A stretch of 39,637 nt of DNA, from contig JAFGYE010000018.1 of NCBI GenBank assembly GCA_016936255.1, forward strand, positions 1-39,637. The letters are read 5' to 3'. The position numbers and the translations under genes are program-made. Shown here in pieces: positions 1-17,526 of the stretch. Numbering within the stretch: the first letter of the stretch is position 1; every line of letters starts with the position of its first letter. This stretch comes from Marinifilaceae bacterium. Its GTDB lineage: Bacteria; Bacteroidota; Bacteroidia; Bacteroidales; Marinifilaceae. The notes beneath the pieces are model-generated. The model worked only from the letters and a program-made list of their open reading frames with translations. It made no database searches and had not been told where the DNA came from.

Positions 1-78
1 ACACTTATCTGTCATTTCGTTGATGCCACCTTTGATGTTCTGTAATTCTTCCTGGGATACTATTTCAAAATTTTTCAT
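1..78 (-). CDS. Double-glycine leader peptide, 3' end outside window
   Basis: The minus strand carries an ATG at 78 followed by 26 open codons running off the left edge. The start reads MKNFEIVSQEELQNIKGG, then INEMTDKC. The pattern of acidic and hydrophobic residues ending in E-L-x-x-I-K-G-G is the classic double-glycine leader of class II bacteriocins and related Bacteroidota precursor peptides. Such leaders are cut after GG by C39-peptidase ABC transporters while the core is exported. The core seen so far (INEMTDKC) already holds one Cys. A bipartite promoter-like motif lies about 55 bp upstream (131-165) and is shared with the ECF sigma gene. The gene is divergent from the TPR-CHAT gene. 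The core sequence and length are unknown because the gene is truncated. The leader pattern is seen directly; export and function are inferred. Confidence 0.7.
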   Translation of the reverse strand, partial: MKNFEIVSQEELQNIKGGINEMTDKC

Positions 79-130: not shown

Positions 131-165
131 CCCCTTTATTCCCCTTTTTTGAAAAAGGTAACCCT
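131..165 (-). promoter_or_regulatory. Bipartite ECF-type promoter motif, copy 1 (leader peptide)
   Basis: Read on the minus strand this is AGGGTTACCTTTTT, then GGGGAATAAAGGGG. GGTTACC (163-157) and AATAAA (140-135) are separated by 16 bp. The same two boxes with the same spacing occur upstream of the sigma gene at 4666-4699. A -35/-10 spacing of 16 bp fits ECF sigma promoters, so this is probably the promoter of the leader-peptide gene starting at 78. Confidence 0.6.
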
Positions 166-171
166 GGAAAC

Positions 172-205
172 AGAGTTTTTTTAATAAAAAATAAAAAAAA
201 ACTCT
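172..205. repeat. A/T-rich inverted repeat between divergent genes
   Basis: AGAGTTTTTTT at 172-182 pairs with AAAAAAACTCT at 195-205 around a 12-nt A-rich loop. It lies upstream of the CHAT gene, where a terminator is not expected because the flanking genes diverge. It may be regulatory, or chance in A/T-rich sequence. Confidence 0.3.
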
Positions 206-242
206 ATATTTAAACTTTTATTAGTCCGTATTTTTCTTGTAA

Positions 243-3125
243 TTGATTGTTAATAAGAATATTAAAAAACTTTTCCTTAGCGTGAAAAATTTCCTAAAAA
301 AGAATCTTATTTTTCCTCTTTTTCCTCTATTCCTTCTCTTTTTATTTAGTGGGAGCACTAATTTTAACTCAAAATCAGAGTTCGAAAAGAAGATTTATTC
401 GGAAATAAGTAGTCCTGATTCTTTACTACAAGAGCAATTTAATAGAGCGGTTGGTTTTTTAAAGAAGGGTGAATTTGATTATTCAGTTCAGTCTTTTGAA
501 AATGCAATAATCACTATCAATCAAGGTGGACTATCTGATAAAAATTTGGTTTATAGAACTTATGTGAATTTTGGTGTTTTGTTAAATAGAGTGGGAGATA
601 GAAAACATGCTATTACATTTTATGATTTAGCAGAAAATTTTGCAATTAAAGAGTTTGGTGATGATTCTGAAAAATTAATACCTGTATACATTAATAAGGG
701 AACAATTTTTAATATTTTAGGTGATTTATTAAAAGCGCAGACCTATTATGAAAAAGGATTATCATTAATAGAAAATAAAAATGAATCAAGATGGCTTTCA
801 AGTACTTATAATAATTTGGGTGTAGTATCTTACAATAGGGGAAAATATATAGAATCTCTTAATTTTTTTTTAAACTCACTAAATATTAAACTTAAAGAAA
901 ACTCTACAAATTTATCAATAACATTAAATGGTATTGCTAATTGTTATAAAAAGTTAGAGAATTATAAAGAGGCAGATACATATTATCAAAAAAGCATAAA
1001 AGAGATAAAAGAACTAAATGGTAATGACTTTTATTTATTGGGAGATTATTATTTAAATTATGCGGTTTTTCAGGATGAAATTGGTAATAGTGATAATGTT
1101 CTTCCCTATTTGAACTTTGCATATAATATATATATTAAAAATTTTGGTGACAAGCATCCCGATACAGCACATTGTTTAAAGAATTTTGGAGATTACTACT
1201 TTAAAAAGAAAGATCATTTAAATGCTTTAAAATACTATCAAAAAGCTTTAATATCAGAAGTGGATAATTTCAATAACAGTACGGTTTATATCAACCCAAC
1301 AATGGATGAACTGGATCCACAGCTTTCCATTTTAGAAATTTTAAAACCCAAGGCAGTTACTCTTCGTTATTTATACGATAAAACCAATAGTATTTCAGAT
1401 TTAGATTTTAGTCTGCAGACTTATGATCTTTGTTTGGATATTATTGATAAAATTCGAATTGCTTATCAGGATGAAGAAAGTAAATTTGCACTTTCTAAAA
1501 ATGAAAAAGAAACTTATAATCAAGCAATTGAGATAGCGGTTGAATTATATCAACTTACAAAGGATGTAAAATACAAAGAAAAAGCTTTTATATATGCTGA
1601 GCGTTCAAAATCAGCTAGTTTACTGTCTTCATTAAATGATGTAAATGCAAAAAATTTCGGGGGTATTTCTACAGAATTGCAGGTTTTGGAAAGAAATTTG
1701 AAGTTGGATATTGCGAAGTACCGTGAGTTGGTTCATGACGAAAGAAGAAAGCAAACACCAAATCGTGATTCTATTACTAACTGGCAAAATGTACTTTTTA
1801 CATTAAATGATGAATACAATCAAATGGTTCTTCGTTTTGAGGAGGATTATCCGGAGTATTACGCACTGAAATATGATACCAAAACTATTGATATAAAAGA
1901 ATTACAGAGAAGATTAAATGATAATGATTTATTGATTGAATATTCTATCTCGGATTCTGCGTTATTTTCTTTCGTAATAACAAAATCGGGTTTTGAAGTG
2001 GAGCGGGAGAAAATTGAGAAAGATAGCTTCGATTATCATTTAGAGGAGGTTCGTAATTGTTTGAAAACGAACGATTTTGCCAATAATAGTGCTGGTTATT
2101 ATAAAAGATATACAAAATCAGCACATATATTGTATCAACATTTATTAAATGACAAAGACAGCTTAATAAGCGGAAAAAATCTTCTCATAGTTCCTGATGA
2201 TAAAATGGCCTACATTCCATTTGGTGTGCTTTTGAAAAAGGAAGCGGATTCTACAACGATGAATTATAGAAATCTGGAATATTTAATAAAAGATAATTCA
2301 ATTACTTACCACAATTCAGCTACTCTTGGGTTCAAAAATCATTCGAGCAGTTATGGTTTTTCTTCAACCAAATCAGTTTTAGCTTTTGCACCTTCTTATG
2401 ATGGTGTTGATGATTCCATTTTACTAACGGAAAGAGCTTATCGGGATAAATTATATCCCTTACCGGGGGTAAAGGAGGAAGTTACTAATATATCAAAAGT
2501 GATACCTGGTGATTTGTTTATTGATGATATGGCCACGGAAGCTAATTTTAAAGCGAATTCTTGTGATTACGACGTTCTGCATTTGGCTATGCACACTATT
2601 ATTGATGATGAAAATCCAATGTATTCAAAATTGGTTTTCACACAAAATGCCGATACACTGCAAGATGGTCTTCTAAATACGCACGAAATTTACAATATGA
2701 ATTTTAACGCAAGAATGGTTGTTTTAAGTGCATGTAATACGGGCGATGGTAAGTTATTAAAGGGAGAAGGAGTAATGAGTTTAGCACGAGGTTTCTTTTA
2801 TGCAGGATGTCCAAGTGTAATTATGACTTTATGGACTGTAGAGGACAAGACAGGATCAAATTTAATGAGTAATTTCTATACTTTTTTATCTCAGGGATTG
2901 AAGAAGGATGATGCTCTTCGTCAAGCCAAATTGGAATATTTAAAAACCGCAGATGCATTAAAAGCACATCCTTATTTTTGGTCTGGATATGTTACATTAG
3001 GAGATGTGGATCCGTTATATGATAATGGGATATTTAATAAATTAATATACTTTACTTTCGGTTCTGTTGGATTAATTTTATTCTTATTTTTTCGAAAAAA
3101 ATTCAAAGGTAAAGCTGTTGCATAG
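243..3125 (+). CDS. Membrane-anchored TPR-CHAT (caspase-like) protein
   Basis: The 960-residue product starts at TTG 243. A GTG at 282 is an alternative start that gives a tidier signal sequence. A hydrophobic stretch at about residues 22-37 is followed by some seven TPR repeats (about 60-345), a helical linker, and a CHAT domain at about 620-925. The caspase-like dyad is present: His784 in HLAMHT and Cys831 in LSACNTG. One membrane segment near 935-952 precedes a Lys-rich tail. The N-terminal signal plus the positive C-terminal tail suggest that the bulk is periplasmic and anchored in the inner membrane; that topology is inference. CHAT proteins are cysteine peptidases of the caspase/separase clan, often driven by TPR-mediated sensing. 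The gene diverges from a GG-leader peptide gene and converges with a sigma/anti-sigma operon, so proteolysis linked to sigma signalling or peptide processing is plausible. The substrate is unknown. Confidence 0.85.
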   Translation: MIVNKNIKKLFLSVKNFLKKNLIFPLFPLFLLFLFSGSTNFNSKSEFEKKIYSEISSPDSLLQEQFNRAVGFLKKGEFDYSVQSFENAIITINQGGLSDKNLVYRTYVNFGVLLNRVGDRKHAITFYDLAENFAIKEFGDDSEKLIPVYINKGTIFNILGDLLKAQTYYEKGLSLIENKNESRWLSSTYNNLGVVSYNRGKYIESLNFFLNSLNIKLKENSTNLSITLNGIANCYKKLENYKEADTYYQKSIKEIKELNGNDFYLLGDYYLNYAVFQDEIGNSDNVLPYLNFAYNIYIKNFGDKHPDTAHCLKNFGDYYFKKKDHLNALKYYQKALISEVDNFNNSTVYINPTMDELDPQLSILEILKPKAVTLRYLYDKTNSISDLDFSLQTYDLCLDIIDKIRIAYQDEESKFALSKNEKETYNQAIEIAVELYQLTKDVKYKEKAFIYAERSKSASLLSSLNDVNAKNFGGISTELQVLERNLKLDIAKYRELVHDERRKQTPNRDSITNWQNVLFTLNDEYNQMVLRFEEDYPEYYALKYDTKTIDIKELQRRLNDNDLLIEYSISDSALFSFVITKSGFEVEREKIEKDSFDYHLEEVRNCLKTNDFANNSAGYYKRYTKSAHILYQHLLNDKDSLISGKNLLIVPDDKMAYIPFGVLLKKEADSTTMNYRNLEYLIKDNSITYHNSATLGFKNHSSSYGFSSTKSVLAFAPSYDGVDDSILLTERAYRDKLYPLPGVKEEVTNISKVIPGDLFIDDMATEANFKANSCDYDVLHLAMHTIIDDENPMYSKLVFTQNADTLQDGLLNTHEIYNMNFNARMVVLSACNTGDGKLLKGEGVMSLARGFFYAGCPSVIMTLWTVEDKTGSNLMSNFYTFLSQGLKKDDALRQAKLEYLKTADALKAHPYFWSGYVTLGDVDPLYDNGIFNKLIYFTFGSVGLILFLFFRKKFKGKAVA

Positions 3126-3292
3126 AATCACGCTATTTTAGTTAGTGAAAATCGCCTAAAGTGGTGCTCATACTCTGAAGATATAAGAGCAGGAAATGGA
3201 TGTTTTTTACGTTAGAGTCTTAAAAGCTTTTCCGGCCTATATCTCATTATTCAGGGGCAATAAATCTGATTGAACTACAATTACAAAAGTAA

Positions 3293-3319
3293 AAGCCACC
3301 CAATTTTATTGGATGGCTT
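3293..3319. terminator. Bidirectional terminator between convergent genes
   Basis: AAGCCA-C-CCAA pairs with TTGG-A-TGGCTT around a TTTTA loop, a 10-pair stem with one mismatch. T-rich tracts lie on both sides (TTTTACTTTTG on the minus strand). It sits between the convergent CHAT gene and the anti-sigma gene, where a shared terminator is expected. Confidence 0.6.
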
Positions 3320-3347
3320 ACTTTATTTTGATGAATGATGAAGTGAT

Positions 3348-4124
3348 CTATTCCAGCCTGTTAATTATTTCCAAAGCCTTTGTCTTATAAAAACTATTTC
3401 CCTGGGCAATTACATGGAATTGCTTAAGAGCTTTTTCTTTCTCGTTGGTCATTAGGTAACAAAAACCCAAATACCATTCAGATTGCTCTATAAACAGGTT
3501 ATTCTTATGCTTTAATACTCTGCTAAAGTTTTTATTTGCTTTTGAGTATTCATTAATTTCGATATTCGAAATACCCGAATAAAAATTACCCGTGATGTTC
3601 GTGCTATCTTTATCCAATATTTGTTTAAATAAAGTTAAAGCGGTTCGATAATCTTTAGTTTCATAGCTTTTTAAAGCTGTAACCAATAAATTATCTATCA
3701 TGATATCAGACGAACGTGTGTTGATTACAACGTTGTATGGTTTATAGTAGTTGCTAAAAACTTTATCATTTGAATAAGCAGACTGGTTGTTCATGATGTA
3801 CATTAAACTCCCAAAGCCAATAGCTAAAGCAAGGGATGCAGCTACAATATTCCACTTAGTCAAAAATTTCAGTTTTCGCTTCTGAGTAGGATTAGAAGGT
3901 ATTTCAATAGCCTCTAATTTTGCTCTAAGATCCATAACGTCTTGTTCCATTATGGCCTCATTAACCTCCATATGAAGGTCAAGTTCCATTTGAAGTTCAG
4001 AATCTTCGAGTAATTCCTTCTCAAATTCCTTCAATTGGCTTTCTGTTAGATCACCGTCAAGAAAATCCTCGATACGGTCAAAATTCATTTCATTCATCAT
4101 ATACTTCTTTAAATTCATTATCAC
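3348..4124 (-). CDS. Single-pass TPR protein, probable anti-sigma factor
   Basis: The 258-residue protein begins with an acidic helical region (about 15-70, with FLDGDLTESQLKEFEKELLE). It resembles the cytoplasmic zinc-less anti-sigma domains of Bacteroidota. One membrane segment follows (about 91-111), then a periplasmic part with TPR-like helices (about 140-258). The first Met (4124) overlaps the upstream sigma gene by 35 nt. Met codons at 4100, 4097 and 4088 are better candidates, since the sigma stop lies at 4090-4092 and the start at 4088 would follow it directly. This implies translational coupling. The layout of sigma factor, then membrane protein with cytosolic N-terminus and extracytoplasmic TPRs, is that of a transmembrane sigma regulator. 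The role as anti-sigma factor is inferred from context and topology; no motif proves it. Confidence 0.7.
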   Translation of the reverse strand: MIMNLKKYMMNEMNFDRIEDFLDGDLTESQLKEFEKELLEDSELQMELDLHMEVNEAIMEQDVMDLRAKLEAIEIPSNPTQKRKLKFLTKWNIVAASLALAIGFGSLMYIMNNQSAYSNDKVFSNYYKPYNVVINTRSSDIMIDNLLVTALKSYETKDYRTALTLFKQILDKDSTNITGNFYSGISNIEINEYSKANKNFSRVLKHKNNLFIEQSEWYLGFCYLMTNEKEKALKQFHVIAQGNSFYKTKALEIINRLE

Positions 4125-4656
4125 TTTTAATACTATCCATCAATACTTGCTTGCATTGATACTTTTTCTTTTTTGCGTACTTCTCACTCTTGTATCCCAT
4201 AATTTCGGATATTTCCTTTAAAGAAACTTTTTCAAGAGTTAATTGAAGCACCTTTTTACAATCTGAGCCAAGAAGTTTGAAGTGCTTTTGATACAGCCTG
4301 TACCTTTCGGTTTGATCGTAGGTCTGTGTTGCTTCATCCAATCTATTGTCCAAAATAGCATCTGAACTAATTTCATTGCTATTTTTTCTTTTCTCAAGTT
4401 GCTTCAACCATAAAAGTCTACAAATTGAATAGATATAGGTTTTAAAATTACAATTCAGAACCAAAGGTTCTTTTTTCATTTTACGGTAGATTACAATAAT
4501 GGCTTCTTGAAAAAGATCTCTTGCATCTTCTTCACTTCCGTTATTGTTTTCTATAAAATTCCGAATACTTGGGAAGAACTTGCTGTAGATGTAATTTAAT
4601 ACATCATTATTGCTCATGCTGATCCCCTCAAGTATCGCTTCCGTAGTGTAATCCAT
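4090..4656 (-). CDS. ECF-type RNA polymerase sigma-70 factor
   Basis: The 188-residue protein has a region-2 domain at about 18-92 (including SEEDARDLFQEAIIVIYRKM and the following aromatic-rich helix with TYIYSICRLLWLK) and a region-4 helix-turn-helix at about 118-175 (LEKVSLKEISEIMGYKSEKYAKKKKYQCK). It lacks regions 1 and 3, as expected for an ECF factor that redirects RNA polymerase. The start ATG at 4656 lies only about 10-20 bp below the AATAAA box of the motif at 4666-4699, so the mRNA would have a very short leader. The product is probably held by the membrane protein encoded just downstream, whose reading frame overlaps it. The motif immediately upstream, repeated before the leader-peptide gene, suggests autoregulation and a small regulon. 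The family call is firm; the regulon is inference. Confidence 0.9.
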   Translation of the reverse strand: MDYTTEAILEGISMSNNDVLNYIYSKFFPSIRNFIENNNGSEEDARDLFQEAIIVIYRKMKKEPLVLNCNFKTYIYSICRLLWLKQLEKRKNSNEISSDAILDNRLDEATQTYDQTERYRLYQKHFKLLGSDCKKVLQLTLEKVSLKEISEIMGYKSEKYAKKKKYQCKQVLMDSIKSDNEFKEVYDE

Positions 4657-4665
4657 ATTTCCTAT

Positions 4666-4699
4666 CCCTTTATTCCCTTATTGGCTAAAAGGTAACCCT
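4666..4699 (-). promoter_or_regulatory. Bipartite ECF-type promoter motif, copy 2 (sigma gene)
   Basis: Read on the minus strand: AGGGTTACCTTTT, ten bases, AGGGAATAAAGGG. GGTTACC (4697-4691) and AATAAA (4674-4669) are 16 bp apart, exactly as at 131-165. The remaining stretch from 4700 to 4940 holds A/T-rich sequence with no gene that I can support. Confidence 0.65.
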
Positions 4700-4940
4700 T
4701 AAAAAGTAAAAAAAAAGTAAAAAAAGTGCACTTTACAGTGTAAGTTGCTGATTAAGTGGCCGATAAAATTTAAATTAAATAATGATTTTTAATGAAAATG
4801 ATAATTTTTTAACATAAACCAATCCAATATACAATTTTCTTTCAAAATTGAATGTTCCTAAAAGTTATTTTTTTTGATTAATCTGAATTTATATACGGCA
4901 GATGTCATAAAAAGATTTATGAATGCATAATTTATGGTAA

Positions 4941-4981: not shown

Positions 4982-5056
4982 TGGGCGATATAGGATTCGA
5001 ACCTATGACCCCTTGGGTGTAAACCAAGTGCTCTGAACCAACTGAGCTAATCGCCC
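4982..5056 (-). tRNA. tRNA-Val (TAC), downstream copy
   Basis: The minus strand reads GGGCGAT, a D arm GCTC-AGTTGGTTCA-GAGC, anticodon stem CTTGG with loop TTTACAC, a T arm with GGTTCGAAT, and a closing ATCGCCC. The anticodon TAC decodes valine. The gene is 75 nt with discriminator A. The next three template bases happen to give CCA, and the last of these is already the first base of the terminator stem. Confidence 0.95.
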
Positions 5057-5085: not shown

Positions 5086-5160
5086 TGGGCGATATAGGAT
5101 TCGAACCTATGACCCCTTGGGTGTAAACCAAGTGCTCTGAACCAACTGAGCTAATCGCCC
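5086..5160 (-). tRNA. tRNA-Val (TAC), upstream copy
   Basis: This copy is identical over the 74-nt cloverleaf to the one at 4982-5056 and 29 bp upstream of it in the direction of transcription. CCA is not encoded (CTA follows the discriminator). Both copies were probably transcribed together and end at the terminator at 4941-4979. Confidence 0.95.
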
Positions 5161-11403: not shown

Positions 11404-11985
11404 ATGAAAAAATTTCAAAACAAATACCGCATTCCCCCGGCACGTGCTCTGTGGTGGAATTATTCCAACGAAGGCAGCTATTTTGTGACCATCTGCACCT
11501 ATAAAAAGCAACTGTTTTTTGGTTCTATTACTGATCAGAAAATGGAATTGTCTGAAATTGGGAAGCTGGCCCATCAATTTTGGTGTGGGATTCCCGATCA
11601 TTTTCCATTCGCAAAATTGCACGCCTTTGTGGTGATGCCCAATCATGTGCATGGTATTATTGAAATATTTAATTCTGAAGAGACGTTGCATGCAACGTCT
11701 GTATACAATGGATTGCATGCAACGTCTGTACAGGATGTGCGGAATGAATCAGATTCCAAAAATGAAAAAATGGCGGCCATATCCCCCAAAAAAGGATCAT
11801 TGGCCAGCATCCTCCGATCCTACAAATCGGCTGTAACAAAAGAGGCGCGAAAAACAGATCCCGATTTCGAATGGCAGGAACGATTTCACGATCACATCAT
11901 TCGCGATGATCAGGAATACCATCGAATCGAAAATTATATCAATAATAATCCCCGGAAATGGGGCGAGGATAAATTTAATGAATAA
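11404..11985 (+). CDS. REP-associated tyrosine transposase (RAYT, Y1 family)
   Basis: The 193-residue protein belongs to the IS200-like Y1 HUH transposases. It has YFVTICTYKKQLFFG near residues 34-48, the metal-binding HUH-type motif MPNHVHGII (His81, His83), and a C-terminal RDDQEYHRIENYINNNPRKW with candidate nucleophile Tyr178. RAYTs are single-copy genes that act on palindromic REP sequences. That fits the palindromes inside and after this gene and the GC-rich repeat before it. The segment at about 95-110 (ETLHATSVYNGLHATSVQD) is translated from two palindromic repeat copies, so the element seems to have entered its own transposase gene without breaking the frame. No inverted-repeat IS ends are seen. 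It is probably a domesticated or genome-resident RAYT. Confidence 0.88.
   Translation: MKKFQNKYRIPPARALWWNYSNEGSYFVTICTYKKQLFFGSITDQKMELSEIGKLAHQFWCGIPDHFPFAKLHAFVVMPNHVHGIIEIFNSEETLHATSVYNGLHATSVQDVRNESDSKNEKMAAISPKKGSLASILRSYKSAVTKEARKTDPDFEWQERFHDHIIRDDQEYHRIENYINNNPRKWGEDKFNE
11681..11700. repeat. Palindromic REP-like repeat, copy 1
   Basis: The perfect 20-bp palindrome AGACGTTGCATGCAACGTCT lies inside the transposase frame and is translated as part of ETLHATS. The identical palindrome occurs at 12009-12028. Confidence 0.85.
11713..11727. repeat. Palindromic REP-like repeat, partial copy 2
   Basis: TTGCATGCAACGTCT repeats the right three quarters of the palindrome at 11681-11700, followed by the same GTA(T/C)A. 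It encodes the second LHATSV of the transposase. Confidence 0.75.
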
Positions 11986-12008: not shown

Positions 12009-12028
12009 AGACGTTGCATGCAACGTCT
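12009..12028. repeat. Palindromic REP-like repeat, copy 3
   Basis: A third, perfect copy of AGACGTTGCATGCAACGTCT lies 23 bp after the transposase stop and just before the S41 gene. The ATG inside it (12018) is in frame with the S41 gene but is not its real start. Confidence 0.85.
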
Positions 12029-12044
12029 CTATCGAAAAAATAAT

Positions 12045-13393
12045 ATGAAAAAAATACTACTACTTGCTTTCGTATTGATAGCAATTATCAGCAAAGGAAT
12101 TTCACAATCCAACTACTCCTTAGCAATCCCAAATCCGAAATCATTATTAACCAAAGAGCAACTGATTAAAGATAAAGAGGCTTTAAAAAGCTATCACCCA
12201 AATCCTTTTAACTCCTTTCCTGAGAGGGAATGGGATTCTTTAATCGAAGTGATTGCAAAAGAATTGCCTTTGGAACCAATTATGGAAACTGAAAAAACAC
12301 TGATTAGAAGAAAGCTTTTGGATAGAATTACTTTTGAAGATCCTCATTTACGGTTTATTCCGGTACTTGGGAAAACGGGTACTTTAAAGGTGAAAATGAA
12401 GAAGATAAATGCTTTACCCTTTACTTTGCTAAATATTTCCGATACTTTGCTAATTGACAGGAGTTTTGATGAAAAAATTCATTCGGGAGACAGGGTTCTC
12501 AGTATTAATAATATTGATGCAGTTACTTATTTAGAAAGTTCGTATCGCGATCGATATATGTCCGGTTACGCCTTGCAGACTTTTCATCATTTCAGTTTTA
12601 CTTCTGATTATAATATCAAATTAGTTAGGAACAATCAACTTAAAGAGATACTTATTAAAGGAATACCTATGGATAATGGTTTTTTTCCAAAATTATATGG
12701 GGATATCGAGGAAAAAATAATTGACAAAAACAAGACGGGATATTTTAGTATCAACAATTTCGATTACAATAAGTATTTGGTAAAATGCTTAGGGCGTTAC
12801 CTTGATAAGGTGAAAAAAGAGGGGTACAAAAATGTTATTATTGATATTAGAAAAAATCCCGGAGGGAGTGGTGATCACTTTGATGAATTGTTTTCATTAC
12901 TATCGAATAATAAAAAAGATTCCTTATCAGTCAGGCGTTAAATTAAAAGTATCTAAAGCCACCTATAAAGATTATTCTTACACGGAAGATGATTTTGGAA
13001 GATTGGTTGACTTGCCGGATTCTCTTATTGTGAAGGAGTGCCCACTGGATAGTTCAATATATAAAGGGGATTTTAATTATTACGTTTTGATAAGTCAGCA
13101 GACAGCATCGATGGCAGCTACTTTTGCTAATGTGATACAGTATAATAAAATTGGTTTGCTGGTTGGAGAACCTCTTGCCCATAATGCCTTAAATTATGGG
13201 GAGACAATTACAGCAGAGAGAGATAATTCCTTTTTCACAATTTCTACGGTAGAGAATTTTGAGTATACAAAGGCTGAAGAGGGAATTTTAAATCCGGATA
13301 TTTCGATACCTTTTTTTTGCGAGTGAGTTTATGAAAGGCGGAGATCCTGTTCTGGAGAAGTGTTTGGAATACATTAAAAGTCACAGTAAGTAG
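12045..13393 (+). pseudogene. S41-family peptidase, broken by two frameshifts
   Basis: The ATG at 12045 opens a secreted protein (signal peptide about 1-21, MKKILLLAFVLIAIISKGIS). It has a PDZ-like part and the S41 (tail-specific protease) signature NVIIDIRKNPGGSGDHF. The frame then stops at 12941. The rest continues in the +1 frame (IPYQSGVKLKV...), including QQTASMAATFANVIQYNKIGLLVGEP with the expected nucleophilic Ser in TASMA, and stops at 13326. Beyond that, a third frame gives SEFMKGGDPVLEKCLEYIK and a stop at 13391-13393, the normal S41 ending (GkDPvLe..L..I). Both breaks fall in homopolymers: A6 at 12912-12917 and T8 at 13311-13318. Each is repaired by removing one base. It is either a recent pseudogene or homopolymer sequencing error. 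Confidence 0.8.
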
Positions 13394-13539: not shown

Positions 13540-15768
13540 TTGACTAACTACCATTCTGCCTTGAAGAAAAAATTCCCCCATTTCCGCCAATTGGATGCCA
13601 TGGATTGTGGCCCGACTTGCCTGCGCATGATTGCCTCACATTTTGGTAAAAACTTCAGTCTACAGTCCTTACGTGATAAATCGCACATTACCCGCGAGGG
13701 AGTTTCGATGTTGGGCATTGCTGATGCGGCTGAAAGTATTGGCCTGCGCACCATGGGCGTTCGCATTAGCTACGAGCAGTTACAGGATGATGCTACGCTT
13801 CCGGCTATTTGCCATTGGGGGCAAAATCATTTTGTGGTGGTGCACAAAATCGAGGTAAAAAAGAAGACAACAACGGTTCATGTTGCCGATCCGGCATCTG
13901 GATTGCTAAAGTTTACCAAAGAGGAATTTATTAAGTCGTGGGCAAGTACACAAAGTCAGGGGGAACTGAAAGGCTTGTGTTTGTTGGTGGAAACCACACC
14001 CGATTTTTACGCGCAGGGCGACGAGGATATTTCCAACAAAAAGAGCATTGGTTTTCTGTTAAAATATCTAAGGCCGTACCATAAGTTTTTGGTGCAATTG
14101 GCACTGGGAATGTTGTTTGGGAGTATGCTGCAACTGATTTTTCCATTCCTTACCCAATCCATAGTCGATGTAGGTATCAATACGCAAAACCTGAGTTTTA
14201 TCTATTTGGTTTTAATTGCTCAATTAGTGCTGTTTATCTCTCGAATGTCAGTGGAATTCATCCGAAGCTGGATACTTTTGCACATCTCAACACGAATAAA
14301 CATCTCATTAATATCCGACTTTTTAATCAAGTTGATGAAATTGCCCATTGGCTTTTTCGATATTAAAATGATCGGTGATTTATTGCAGCGGATACAGGAT
14401 CATACCCGAATCGAAAGTTTCCTTACATCATCAACCTTAAGCATCCTGTTTTCGATGGTCAATCTGGTGATTTTTGGAATTGTTTTAGCCATTTACGACA
14501 TGCAAATCTTTTTTGTTTTTGTAATTGGATCGGTTTTGTATCTAATATGGGTGAATCTTTTTCTGCGAAAACGTCGAGAATTGGATGGGAAACGATTCGC
14601 TCAGTTATCGAACAATCAGAATTCATTGGTTCAGTTAATTACCGGAATGCAGGAAATTAAGCTGAACAACTGTGAGAAACAAAAGCGTTGGGAGTGGGAG
14701 CAAATACAGGCTGAATTGTTTAAGGTGAGAACCAAAGGTTTGGCTTTGAATCAGTATCAGGTTTCCGGTTCTATTTTTTTCAACGAAACTAAGAATATCA
14801 TCATCACCTTTTTAGCGGCCAAGTCGGTACTCGATGGCGGCATGACTTTGGGTATGATGTTGGCGGTGTCGTACATTTTGGGTCAATTGAATTCCCCGCT
14901 TGATAATTTGGTGCAGTTTATTCATTCGTGGCAGGATGCTAAAATTTCGCTCGAGCGTTTGGGTGAAATTCACGAGATGAAGGAGGAAGAAATGCCAAAT
15001 GAGGATCGCTTAACAGAGATTCCCGAAGAAAAGGCCATTGACATCGAAAAGGTATTCTTTCAGTACGAAGGTCCACATTCCGAAATGGTTTTGGATGATG
15101 TTAATTTGAAGATAGAAGATGGAAAAACCACTGCAATTGTTGGTGCATCGGGTAGTGGAAAAACCACTTTAATTAAGCTGATGTTGGGATTTTATCCAAC
15201 TACAAAAGGAAGAATTTCCTTGGGCGGAGTTAGTCTCGAAAATTACAGCTCAGCCATGTGGCGGCAGAATTGTGGTGTGGTGATGCAGGATGGTTTTATC
15301 TTTTCGGATACCATCGCCAAAAACATTGCCGTTGGAGTGGAGAATATTGATAAAAAGAGATTGTTGTATGCGGTTCAGGTTGCCTGTATCGATCTGTTTA
15401 TTGAAAGTTTGCCGTTGCGCTACAATACACGAATTGGTGCCAATGGTCATGGTTTAAGCCAAGGGCAAAAGCAACGGATTTTAATTGCCAGGGCAGTCTA
15501 TAAAAACCCAAAATTTTTGTTTTTCGATGAAGCAACCAATGCCTTGGATGCAAACAACGAAAAGGCAATCATGAACAATCTGGAGGAGTTCAATAAAGGA
15601 AGAACTGTTGTTGTTGTGGCTCATCGCTTAAGTACTGTTCGTAGTGCCGATAAAATAATTGTTCTGGATAAAGGAAAAATTGTTGAGGAAGGAACTCATA
15701 CTGATTTAACAAAATTGAAGGGAACTTATTATCAGTTGGTGAAAAATCAGCTGGAACTCGGCAATTAG
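13540..15768 (+). CDS. C39-peptidase ABC transporter (bacteriocin-type exporter)
   Basis: The 742-residue protein starts at TTG 13540. The N-terminal C39 peptidase domain (about 1-145) has its full catalytic set: Cys23 in MDCGPTCL, His97 in GQNHFVVVH and Asp117 in VADPASG. This domain cuts leaders after Gly-Gly. An ABC transmembrane domain follows (about 165-450). The nucleotide-binding domain has Walker A GASGSGKTT (about 534-542), signature LSQGQKQRI, Walker B FLFFDEATNALD and H-loop VVAHRLST. Such exporters dimerise in the inner membrane, trim GG-leader peptides and push the core through an HlyD adaptor, here encoded at 16228-17526. No outer-membrane TolC partner or precursor peptide is seen nearby; the only GG-leader gene in the window is at 1-78. 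The function is well supported; the substrate is inferred. Confidence 0.95.
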   Translation: MTNYHSALKKKFPHFRQLDAMDCGPTCLRMIASHFGKNFSLQSLRDKSHITREGVSMLGIADAAESIGLRTMGVRISYEQLQDDATLPAICHWGQNHFVVVHKIEVKKKTTTVHVADPASGLLKFTKEEFIKSWASTQSQGELKGLCLLVETTPDFYAQGDEDISNKKSIGFLLKYLRPYHKFLVQLALGMLFGSMLQLIFPFLTQSIVDVGINTQNLSFIYLVLIAQLVLFISRMSVEFIRSWILLHISTRINISLISDFLIKLMKLPIGFFDIKMIGDLLQRIQDHTRIESFLTSSTLSILFSMVNLVIFGIVLAIYDMQIFFVFVIGSVLYLIWVNLFLRKRRELDGKRFAQLSNNQNSLVQLITGMQEIKLNNCEKQKRWEWEQIQAELFKVRTKGLALNQYQVSGSIFFNETKNIIITFLAAKSVLDGGMTLGMMLAVSYILGQLNSPLDNLVQFIHSWQDAKISLERLGEIHEMKEEEMPNEDRLTEIPEEKAIDIEKVFFQYEGPHSEMVLDDVNLKIEDGKTTAIVGASGSGKTTLIKLMLGFYPTTKGRISLGGVSLENYSSAMWRQNCGVVMQDGFIFSDTIAKNIAVGVENIDKKRLLYAVQVACIDLFIESLPLRYNTRIGANGHGLSQGQKQRILIARAVYKNPKFLFFDEATNALDANNEKAIMNNLEEFNKGRTVVVVAHRLSTVRSADKIIVLDKGKIVEEGTHTDLTKLKGTYYQLVKNQLELGN

Positions 15769-16175: not shown

Positions 16176-16227
16176 GAACTTTAGAGCTCTGTTTAATTAT
16201 TAATTACTCATTATTAATTGTTAATTG

Positions 16228-17526
16228 ATGGATAAGGATACAAACATAGAATTACGTTCAGATGAAGTTAAGGAGATTTTGCAGCGCATGCCTAATTGGA
16301 TCATTCGAAGCGGAACAACTCTTTTTTTCGTTGTTATTTTTGCCCTGCTGATTGGGAGTTGGTTTTTCCGCTACCCGGATATTATTCATTCCAAATTGGT
16401 TCTTACCACTTTAAATCCGCCTGCCGAATTGGTTGCACGATCATCCGGACAGATCCAAAATTTGTATGTTAATGATAATCAGGAGGTGAAAAAGGGAGAC
16501 CTTTTGGCCATTATCGAAAATCCTGCTGTTAATGATGATGTGTTTGTTTTGAAAACAAGAATGGAGGAGTTTCATGAACACCTTACGGGTGTGGATGGCA
16601 TTAAATCAAATTTGTTGGAAGGCAATTTTCGATTGGGAGAAATTCAGTCGTACTACAATGGATTTTTAAAATCATATGTTGATTATCAGCGCTTTTTTGA
16701 TTTGGACTATTACGATCGAAAAATAGAATCTTACAAAGACAAAATCAGTAAGTACAATTTGTATTACGACCGGCAATACCAGCAAAAAGTGATTTCTGAA
16801 AGTGAATTGGCGATATCAAAAAAGCAGTTTATTCGTGATTCATCTTTATTTGTCCGGGGCGTAATTTCGCAGTCCGATTTTCAAAATGCACGTAAAAAAT
16901 ATCTCGAACAGAGTTATGCTTTTCATGGCACACGTTCTTCGCTTGCCTCTACTCAGATTAGTATTTCGGAGGTAAATCAACAAATCATAGATTTGGAATT
17001 GAACAAGGAAAATGAGCGAAAGGAATTACAGAATCTACTCATTCAATCATTCGATAACCTAAAGGCGCAGATAACCATTTGGGAGCAAAAGTATGTGCTT
17101 ACAACACCTATTGATGGTAAGGTTAGTTTTAACCGGTTTTACAGCTCCAATCAAAATGTTAAAACAGGAGAGCGGGTTTTCACTGTATTGCCTTCAGATT
17201 CCACCAAAATTATTGCCAGAGTTGAATTGGGAGTTCAAGGAGCGGGCAAGGTTAAAATTGGACAGCGGGTGAATATAAAACTTGATAATTATCCTTATCT
17301 TGAATATGGAATGCTGGAAGGAACCATTCGATCCATATCAAAAGTACCTGAAGATCAGAAATACAGTTTAGATGTTGATTTTTCTAAAGGTTTGGTTACC
17401 AATTATGGAATTGAGTTGGATTTTGCTCAACAAATTGAAGGTCAGGCTGAAATAATTACTGAAGATCTTCGGTTATTACAGCGTATTTTTAATCCGATTC
17501 GATCATTACTTAAAGCACGTTTGTAA
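16228..17526 (+). CDS. HlyD family secretion adaptor protein
   Basis: The preferred start is ATG 16228, one codon after an in-frame TTG, giving 432 residues. The cytoplasmic N-terminus (about 1-27) is followed by one membrane segment (about 28-49), then the first half of a lipoyl-like domain (LVARSSGQIQNLYVNDNQEVKKGDLLAII). Long coiled-coil hairpins follow (about 100-285), then the second lipoyl half (LTTPIDGKVSF) and beta-barrel domains. This is the periplasmic adaptor of type I export and links the C39 ABC transporter to an outer-membrane channel. Pairing with that transporter is supported by adjacency and shared strand; the four-helix-bundle gene intervenes. Confidence 0.92.
   Translation: MDKDTNIELRSDEVKEILQRMPNWIIRSGTTLFFVVIFALLIGSWFFRYPDIIHSKLVLTTLNPPAELVARSSGQIQNLYVNDNQEVKKGDLLAIIENPAVNDDVFVLKTRMEEFHEHLTGVDGIKSNLLEGNFRLGEIQSYYNGFLKSYVDYQRFFDLDYYDRKIESYKDKISKYNLYYDRQYQQKVISESELAISKKQFIRDSSLFVRGVISQSDFQNARKKYLEQSYAFHGTRSSLASTQISISEVNQQIIDLELNKENERKELQNLLIQSFDNLKAQITIWEQKYVLTTPIDGKVSFNRFYSSNQNVKTGERVFTVLPSDSTKIIARVELGVQGAGKVKIGQRVNIKLDNYPYLEYGMLEGTIRSISKVPEDQKYSLDVDFSKGLVTNYGIELDFAQQIEGQAEIITEDLRLLQRIFNPIRSLLKARL

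Follow-up and report, generated by a model that had tools for sequence, protein, structure and literature searches.

A probable sigma-factor promoter shared by an ECF sigma gene and a double-glycine peptide array in Marinifilaceae

The locus and its two sites

The window analysed here, a stretch of 39,637 nucleotides (nt) from a Marinifilaceae bacterium (contig JAFGYE010000018.1 of assembly GCA_016936255.1), begins with a compact group of genes around an extracytoplasmic function (ECF) sigma factor. Two of its genes, encoding the sigma factor and a short peptide with a double-glycine (GG) leader, are each preceded by a copy of the bipartite element GGTTACC-N16-AATAAA. A putative anti-sigma gene and a gene for a caspase-like CHAT protein with tetratricopeptide repeats (TPR) lie between them, in the following arrangement.

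1..78, minus strand: first gene of a GG-leader peptide array (MKNFEIVSQEELQNIKGG-INEMTDKC...), its open reading frame (ORF) cut by the contig end
128..169, minus strand: sigma-type promoter of the GG-peptide gene (GGTTACC 163-157, GAATAAA 141-135, GGGGTG 134-129)
243..3125, plus strand: TPR-CHAT caspase-like protein (Pfam CHAT, 1.1e-57; likely start GTG 282)
3348..4124, minus strand: putative anti-sigma with an N-terminal helical part, one transmembrane (TM) helix and a C-terminal TPR domain (TPR matches just below Pfam cut-offs)
4090..4656, minus strand: ECF sigma factor, 188 amino acids (aa) (TIGR02937, 59.6 bits, cut-off 42.9; Sigma70_r2, 25.8, cut-off 24)
4662..4703, minus strand: sigma-type promoter of the sigma gene (GGTTACC 4697-4691, GAATAAA 4675-4669, GGGATA 4668-4663)

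The original prediction had placed the element twice on the minus strand with an equal offset between its boxes, and both points are borne out, at 163-135 (GGTTACC 163-157, AATAAA 140-135) and at 4697-4669 (GGTTACC 4697-4691, AATAAA 4674-4669), with a spacer of N16 in each copy. The distance of about 55 bp that it gave for the peptide gene also stands, the ATG at 78 lying 56 nt past AATAAA; the distance for the sigma gene is corrected to 12 nt, counted to the ATG at 4656. With spacers of N14-18 allowed, the GGTTACC/AATAAA pattern matches twice in the window, compared with a mean of 0.01 in 100 dinucleotide shuffles, none of which has two matches. The same loose pattern finds 7 matches in the window's own genome versus 1 for the reversed control, and 6 of the 7 have GGTTACCTTT in common together with the exact N16 spacer. 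A chance resemblance between the two sites, for which nothing speaks except the AT-rich context, is a negligible prospect in view of the shuffles and, as described below, the counts in the family and order, the conservation of individual bases, the fixed spacer and the sites upstream of small RNAs (sRNAs).

The 188-aa protein has the composition of an ECF (group 4 sigma-70) factor, a small protein with sigma-2 and sigma-4 regions. Its TIGR02937 match covers residues 20-159; a separate Pfam match to sigma-4 was not found in it. The ATG at 4656 looks like the real start of its gene because, judged by eye, orthologues keep the residues behind this codon despite synonymous base changes; on the same comparison we rejected a later start, at a Met some 52 nt from the motif. 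With the -35 box at GGTTAC and transcription beginning about 7 nt past AATAAA, starts would be expected at about 128 for the peptide gene and about 4662 for the sigma gene. The sigma mRNA would therefore be almost leaderless, with an expected leader of about 6 nt. All 13 named Labilibaculum/Marinifilum orthologues (L063-L075) keep the sigma-gene site, and relatives show an equivalent site upstream of the peptide array. Directly upstream of the sigma promoter lie two adjacent tRNA genes of equal score, at 4982-5056 and 5086-5160 on the minus strand.

Distribution and form of the element

We compared the element with the sigma gene in two samples. Across 56 genomes of the family, with one mismatch at most in the site and sigma orthologues accepted at E at most 1e-30, there are 108 sites in 24 genomes versus 1 control match. 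All 22 genomes with the sigma factor have sites, as do 2 of the 34 without it, and 32 genomes have neither (Fisher p = 1.3e-13, a value that ignores shared ancestry). The two genomes with the motif and without a sigma match, G001 and G006 (1180 contigs; 63% complete), are poor, fragmentary assemblies of the same genus and are retained in the counts. In 21 of the 22 sigma-bearing genomes a site stands exactly 11 nt upstream of the sigma ATG; in the 22nd, G018 (L181), the site before the sigma gene has two mismatches. This position, together with the near-confinement of the sites to sigma-carrying genomes, lends comparative support to the earlier proposal of a self-activated ECF promoter, and we infer that the site is read by the sigma factor itself and not by some other linked factor.

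The association extends to the order, where 295 genomes were searched with no mismatch, C/T and A/T being allowed at two variable positions, and sigma relatives were accepted at E at most 1e-20. Here 46 sites fall in 15 genomes, with 0 in the control, and a sigma relative is present in 14 of these 15 genomes versus 103 of the 295 overall (p = 2e-6) or, counted by genus, in 8 of 9 motif genera (p = 0.0015). By coordinates, the site lies directly upstream of the sigma gene in 8 of the 14 (G000, G127, G153, G158, G171, G257, G269 and G321). In some relatives that fall outside the pattern, the -35 box is kept and the -10 box has drifted (L181, L183, L185, L085).

Alignment of 91 sites gives a fuller form, a T-rich stretch followed by aG-GGTTAC(C/T)TTTT-N11-GGAAT(A/T)AAGGGGTR, in which most consensus bases are imposed by the search pattern itself. 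Beyond that pattern, conservation is seen for the G directly before GGTTACC (87%, position -1), the G directly before GAATAAA (74%, position 21) and, within GGGGTR, T at position 33 (92%) and A/G at position 34 (99%). With the spacer left free between 1 and 28, 35 of 36 matches in 9 genomes of the genus share a single spacer length. From the 30-nt pattern to the start codon the distance is always 11 nt for sigma genes, 28-36 nt for many proteins, 34-56 nt for array peptides and 107-111 nt for the C25 peptidase.

The original prediction had named random scatter across the genome as the outcome that would count against it. Well-matched sites do not behave in this way, as the family count shows, but sites with two or three mismatches exceed the reversed control little or not at all: at up to two mismatches, G000, G071, G004 and G013 have 14, 11, 6 and 7 matches versus 7, 5, 6 and 8 in their controls. 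By such control counts, most two- to three-mismatch sites and the N14 match at C25:6040 of the window's own genome look like background, and they were rejected as true sites. For the well-matched sites, we consider it highly probable from these comparisons that the element is a promoter of the ECF sigma factor, one whose -35 box is extended (aGGGTTAC[C/T]TTTT), whose spacer is 11 nt long and whose -10/discriminator is unusual (GGAAT[A/T]AAGGGGTR).

Genes and putative small RNAs behind the sites

We read 101 distinct site contexts from 129 sightings, with some overlap among the loci and a few of them truncated at contig ends. The site precedes an array peptide in 19, a sigma gene in 18, a lipoprotein-like gene in 16, a C25 peptidase in 10 and the small RNA sRNA-A in 10; the remainder comprises helix-turn-helix (HTH) proteins (8), SpvB/RHS proteins (4), sRNA-B (3), other GG peptides (2) and others (11). 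The labels come from simple patterns, and some of the lipoprotein-like rows are doubtful (L117, L150, L152). The suggestion in the original prediction that the GG peptide belongs to the regulon is supported by the 19 contexts with an array peptide.

The HTH contexts bear on another reading of the element, in which GGTTACC would be the operator of a linked DNA-binding regulator instead of a -35 box, the sigma gene being merely a co-regulated target. GGTTACC is an odd-length palindrome (an inverted repeat), and the HTH proteins that begin the eight contexts have 65-75 aa. The element as a whole is asymmetric, with TTTT on one side only; its distance to GAATWAAGGGGTR is fixed; and its presence tracks the sigma factor, whereas the HTH gene is absent from most contexts. 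An operator is improbable on this evidence, and we return to the sigma promoter as the preferred reading.

The well-matched sites of the window's own genome stand before the sigma gene, the array peptide, a lipoprotein, two putative sRNAs, a C25 peptidase and a PKD protein that both carry a type IX secretion system (T9SS) tail, and an SpvB/RHS-like protein, behind which the second gene encodes a T9SS tail. In distant members of the order, sites precede sigma genes and histidine kinases that resemble the array kinase described below (L194, L205, L210), and in L201 a site is followed by an HTH gene and then a small ORF that is GG-led by eye. We hold, with the same high confidence that applies jointly to the promoter, that the sites mark a regulon, conserved in Labilibaculum and related bacteria, of peptide array and kinase, HTH-led lanthipeptide or GG-peptide operons, T9SS-tailed C25 peptidase, RHS/SpvB-like proteins, lipoproteins and two putative sRNAs. 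Several regulon sites of genome G002 lie near contig ends (L101, L163, L165), a sign that the SpvB/RHS and lipoprotein genes may be repeated there.

The window is the entire contig C82 and ends inside the first array copy, most likely where the repeat broke the assembly. Relatives show tandem arrays: the conspecific genome G071 (L136) encodes a 33-aa peptide five times over, and L150 and L143 have five and six copies; array peptides have 30-33 aa, and copies are spaced 130-220 nt apart in the arrays read. GG follows the leader in all listed copies, GG having been part of the search, and the leader of the one copy scanned scores 14.4 bits against TIGR01847, under the cut-off of 15.7 (E 0.046). 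The mature part has 12 or 15 aa and ends in [DE][DE]x[IL]V in 37 of 38 listed peptide strings, one peptide being counted with two starts; the odd one out, in L121, belongs to another gene. Behind the array, five annotated stretches have a histidine kinase of 275-287 aa, with HisKA and HATPase domains in the one scanned. No match to this kinase was found in G000, an empty result that shows nothing.

The peptides may be secreted effectors or bacteriocins rather than signals, an output only, with the sigma factor answering envelope stress or competition. Tandem near-identical copies would suit a high-output product, and the site also serves lanthipeptide and GG-peptide clusters. Typical pore-forming bacteriocins are unlike a mature part of just 12-15 aa with an acidic end; the array adjoins the CHAT gene and a histidine kinase; and no immunity gene was noticed among the array-side ORFs, where none was searched for. 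We give this alternative a substantial chance, though one short of even.

Export of the peptides has a candidate further along the window, about 13 kb from the array.

13540..15768, plus strand: C39-peptidase ABC exporter (PCAT; Pfam Peptidase_C39, 3.3e-32)
16225..17526, plus strand: HlyD-type membrane-fusion partner of the exporter (Pfam HlyD_3)

This PCAT is a candidate for both exporter and leader peptidase of the GG peptides. In the window it has no site upstream (the best match has 5 mismatches), and no lanthipeptide gene was noticed in its region. It is 83-98% identical to an exporter in 6 of the 7 relatives' stretches read, with HlyD adjoining in the same 6; in the seventh, L277, an exporter was not found. 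The relatives link C39-ABC exporters to GG peptides: in L273, L274 and L278 the exporter lies in one cluster with GG or lanthipeptide genes, behind motif, HTH and peptide genes. No site with one mismatch or fewer was found near the exporters of L275, L276 and L279. For LANTHIPEPTIDES and the exporter, the order in both G002 and G003 is site, HTH, class I lanthipeptide precursor, LanC, LanB, C39 exporter and HlyD; in G011 a site is followed by HTH, two GG-led ORFs and the exporter. To the left of the exporter, at 12018-13326, a protease-like gene, which we take to be of S41 type, appears split into two overlapping ORFs, as it does in the conspecific L136; L164 has one ORF of 448 aa, and the split is probably a species-level frameshift. 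The ORF at 11404-11985 resembles REP-associated transposases.

Two of the sites, C48:29218 and C70:99207, have no conserved ORF behind them and a terminator-like hairpin about 100 nt on. Their equivalents align as two families, A and B, in which, judged by eye, each arm of the terminator stems carries changes. An Rfam scan of the source sequences returned two tRNAs only and left both families unmatched. Covariance models were built from the downstream RNA without promoter sequence and trained on ten A and four B sequences chosen for having a site. They find family A in 15 of the 56 genomes and family B in 17, all in sigma-carrying genera. A site with two mismatches or fewer lies 25-39 nt upstream of 30 of the 32 matches, where the closest other resemblance to the site within the next 400 nt differs at 4-8 positions. 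Outside the training set, the upstream site is present for 4 of 5 A matches and 12 of 13 B matches, two of these having been seen with the motif beforehand. The sequences look like two sRNAs behind sigma sites. One sRNA-B match, L243 (E 0.0017), has no motif and is probably false. Behind the sites of L187 and L188 (G256, G340), about 70 nt are conserved between the two genomes, possibly as a third sRNA.

Several observations weigh against the promoter and its regulon as we read them. The -10 box is unlike the CGT box at -10 that the available part of one study describes for Flavobacterium ECF-type promoters (PMC9723704). Weak sites are background-like, with 25 matches versus 26 in the control at up to three mismatches in G000. 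The sRNA-A promoter of G004 (L221) has 6 mismatches. One order genome with the motif, G245, has no sigma match; its site (L189, G245:C96:1048) lies in an assembly that is 88% complete. No GGTTACC is present upstream of the sigma start in Sunxiuqinia/Gaoshiqia and in the Prolixibacteraceae metagenome-assembled genome UBA12447 (L077-L082, L084), and 89 of 280 motif-less order genomes have a sigma relative. The specificity would therefore be limited to a part of the sigma family.

A possible signalling circuit and its known counterparts

In the circuit that we propose, the ECF sigma factor would read the element and switch on its own operon and the conserved regulon; the TPR-CHAT protein would cleave or otherwise release the putative anti-sigma; and the freed sigma would raise the levels of sigma, peptide, peptide clusters and sRNAs. 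Comparison of sequences establishes the sites, their fixed spacing and conservation, the neighbours, the gene order and the conserved catalytic residues. Our high confidence covers promoter and regulon, and the signalling steps are graded separately.

The first of these steps concerns the putative anti-sigma, whose likely start near 4100 overlaps the end of the sigma gene and whose predicted model has a pLDDT of 73. It has no match to an anti-sigma family in Pfam or NCBIfam at E 0.001, including the class I anti-sigma domain (ASDI), and 14 aligned candidates contain no invariant His for the ASDI motif Hx3Cx2C, their sole invariant Cys lying in the TPR part. According to the accessible text of one survey, class I anti-sigmas stand beside 6% of Bacteroidetes ECF sigmas, versus 32% on average (PMC7406223). 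That this single-pass membrane TPR protein holds the sigma factor is probable, and the locus is a concrete candidate for how Bacteroidetes ECF sigmas are held and released, in genera with cultured strains.

The TPR-CHAT protein is predicted to be periplasmic because it has a hydrophobic N-terminal stretch (11 of 13 aligned frames) and a C-terminal TM helix (13 of 13), with TPR repeats besides. Both catalytic-site His and the Cys are conserved in 13 of 13 frames, and in all 13 comparisons conservation is lower in the TPR part than in the catalytic one (for instance 55 vs 76%, 54 vs 74% and 66 vs 90%). A Foldseek search with its AlphaFold model (pLDDT 81.5, pTM 0.70) finds the Craspase TPR-CHAT first (8d9f_A, E 1.7e-14), then separase and DdvA. 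In the single-contig assembly of G071 (L136, 9533-13400), the anti-sigma and CHAT frames are both interrupted, by indel errors or recent decay.

The TPR-CHAT protein, periplasmic by prediction, may cleave or otherwise release the putative anti-sigma, a step that we put forward tentatively. Other proteases may instead release the sigma factor, with CHAT processing peptides or surface proteins or serving the array otherwise; this is nearly an even prospect. Of 23 named sigma loci, 15 have the CHAT gene within the stretch fetched, and in the Labilibaculum/Marinifilum loci that have it the gene is convergent. Sigma, anti-sigma and CHAT genes adjoin in seven distant loci (CHAT identity 30-38%), convergently in five, which speaks for CHAT acting on the anti-sigma, as does the cleavage of a sigma inhibitor by the Craspase TPR-CHAT, the top structural match, reported in the available section of PMC10028731. 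Pointing the other way, and so against CHAT acting on the anti-sigma, four of the 23 loci lack CHAT at full length (L074, L076, L082, L084), while L077 and L079-L081 lack it and are cut short; two of the distant loci depart from the convergent arrangement (L184, divergent; L185, same strand and upstream); and no CHAT is seen beside the sigma gene in g12 (L181). In genus g10, CHAT stays with the array: sigma and anti-sigma lie on a different contig, and the two genomes read (L268, L269) both have CHAT (71-72%) next to the peptide promoter, in divergent orientation.

It is doubtful, although conceivable, that the exported peptide is the ligand of the TPR part of CHAT and closes a positive loop. 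Less likely again is the complete chain, in which a 12-15-aa GG peptide is sensed by the periplasmic TPR-CHAT, which cleaves the anti-sigma, and the sigma factor amplifies peptide, lanthipeptides, T9SS-tailed proteins and sRNAs. If true, this would be a peptide circuit for quorum or kin sensing with a caspase-like protease at its core, possibly a chromosomal counterpart of the Craspase sigma switch, and a single circuit would then bring together caspase-like proteases, peptide signalling, sRNAs and the making of antimicrobial peptides. ECF sigmas, CHAT proteases, GG peptides and sigma-driven sRNAs are each of a kind already known; no report of their union was recognised among the open-licence PMC matches listed, which is weak evidence of absence.

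Escherichia coli sigma-E is an autoregulated ECF sigma factor with a membrane anti-sigma and the sRNAs MicA, RybB and MicL. The system described here resembles it in probable autoregulation, in a (putative) membrane anti-sigma and in putative sRNA targets, and differs in the sRNAs themselves, the promoter, the phylum and the candidate protease. Streptococcal Com/Blp systems use GG-leader pheromones, C39 exporters and a membrane kinase with a response regulator. Common to both are a short peptide, here with a likely GG leader, the C39 exporter, bacteriocin-type genes in the regulon and possibly a positive loop; the ECF sigma factor, CHAT, the Gram-negative host and the tandem peptide genes set the present system apart.

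Links between an ECF sigma factor and T9SS are also described in the accessible parts of two papers on Porphyromonas gingivalis PorXY-SigP, in which the sigma factor controls T9SS component genes (PMC4800418, PMC7712824); here, by contrast, it is proteins with a T9SS tail, a C25 peptidase and a PKD protein, that are targeted. In Myxococcus xanthus, the ECF sigma factor DdvS is paired with the transmembrane anti-sigma DdvA and is active once DdvA is inactivated, as an excerpt of PMC4374960 states. The CHAT model matches DdvA (8rw5, E 1.7e-11) with a low TM-score (0.28-0.30); unlike in DdvS/DdvA, the locus encodes the putative anti-sigma and CHAT in two genes and has a peptide array alongside.

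The remaining parallel is with type III-E Craspase/CASP, in which, as far as the available portion of PMC10028731 goes, Csx30 binds and inhibits CASP-sigma and Csx29 cleaves Csx30. Both systems have a TPR-CHAT caspase-like protein, with a shared fold and catalytic His/Cys, near an ECF sigma factor and its putative inhibitor. The parallel rests on structure and gene company, not on sequence, because the CHAT-domain profile has 0 matches among PDB sequences at E 0.01, Csx29 included. No gRAMP (Cas7-11) gene was noticed among the window's ORFs, for which no dedicated search was run. Unlike Craspase, CHAT here is periplasmic by prediction and the putative inhibitor is a TPR protein with one TM helix, and the locus thus offers a test for TPR-CHAT control of sigma factors outside CRISPR.

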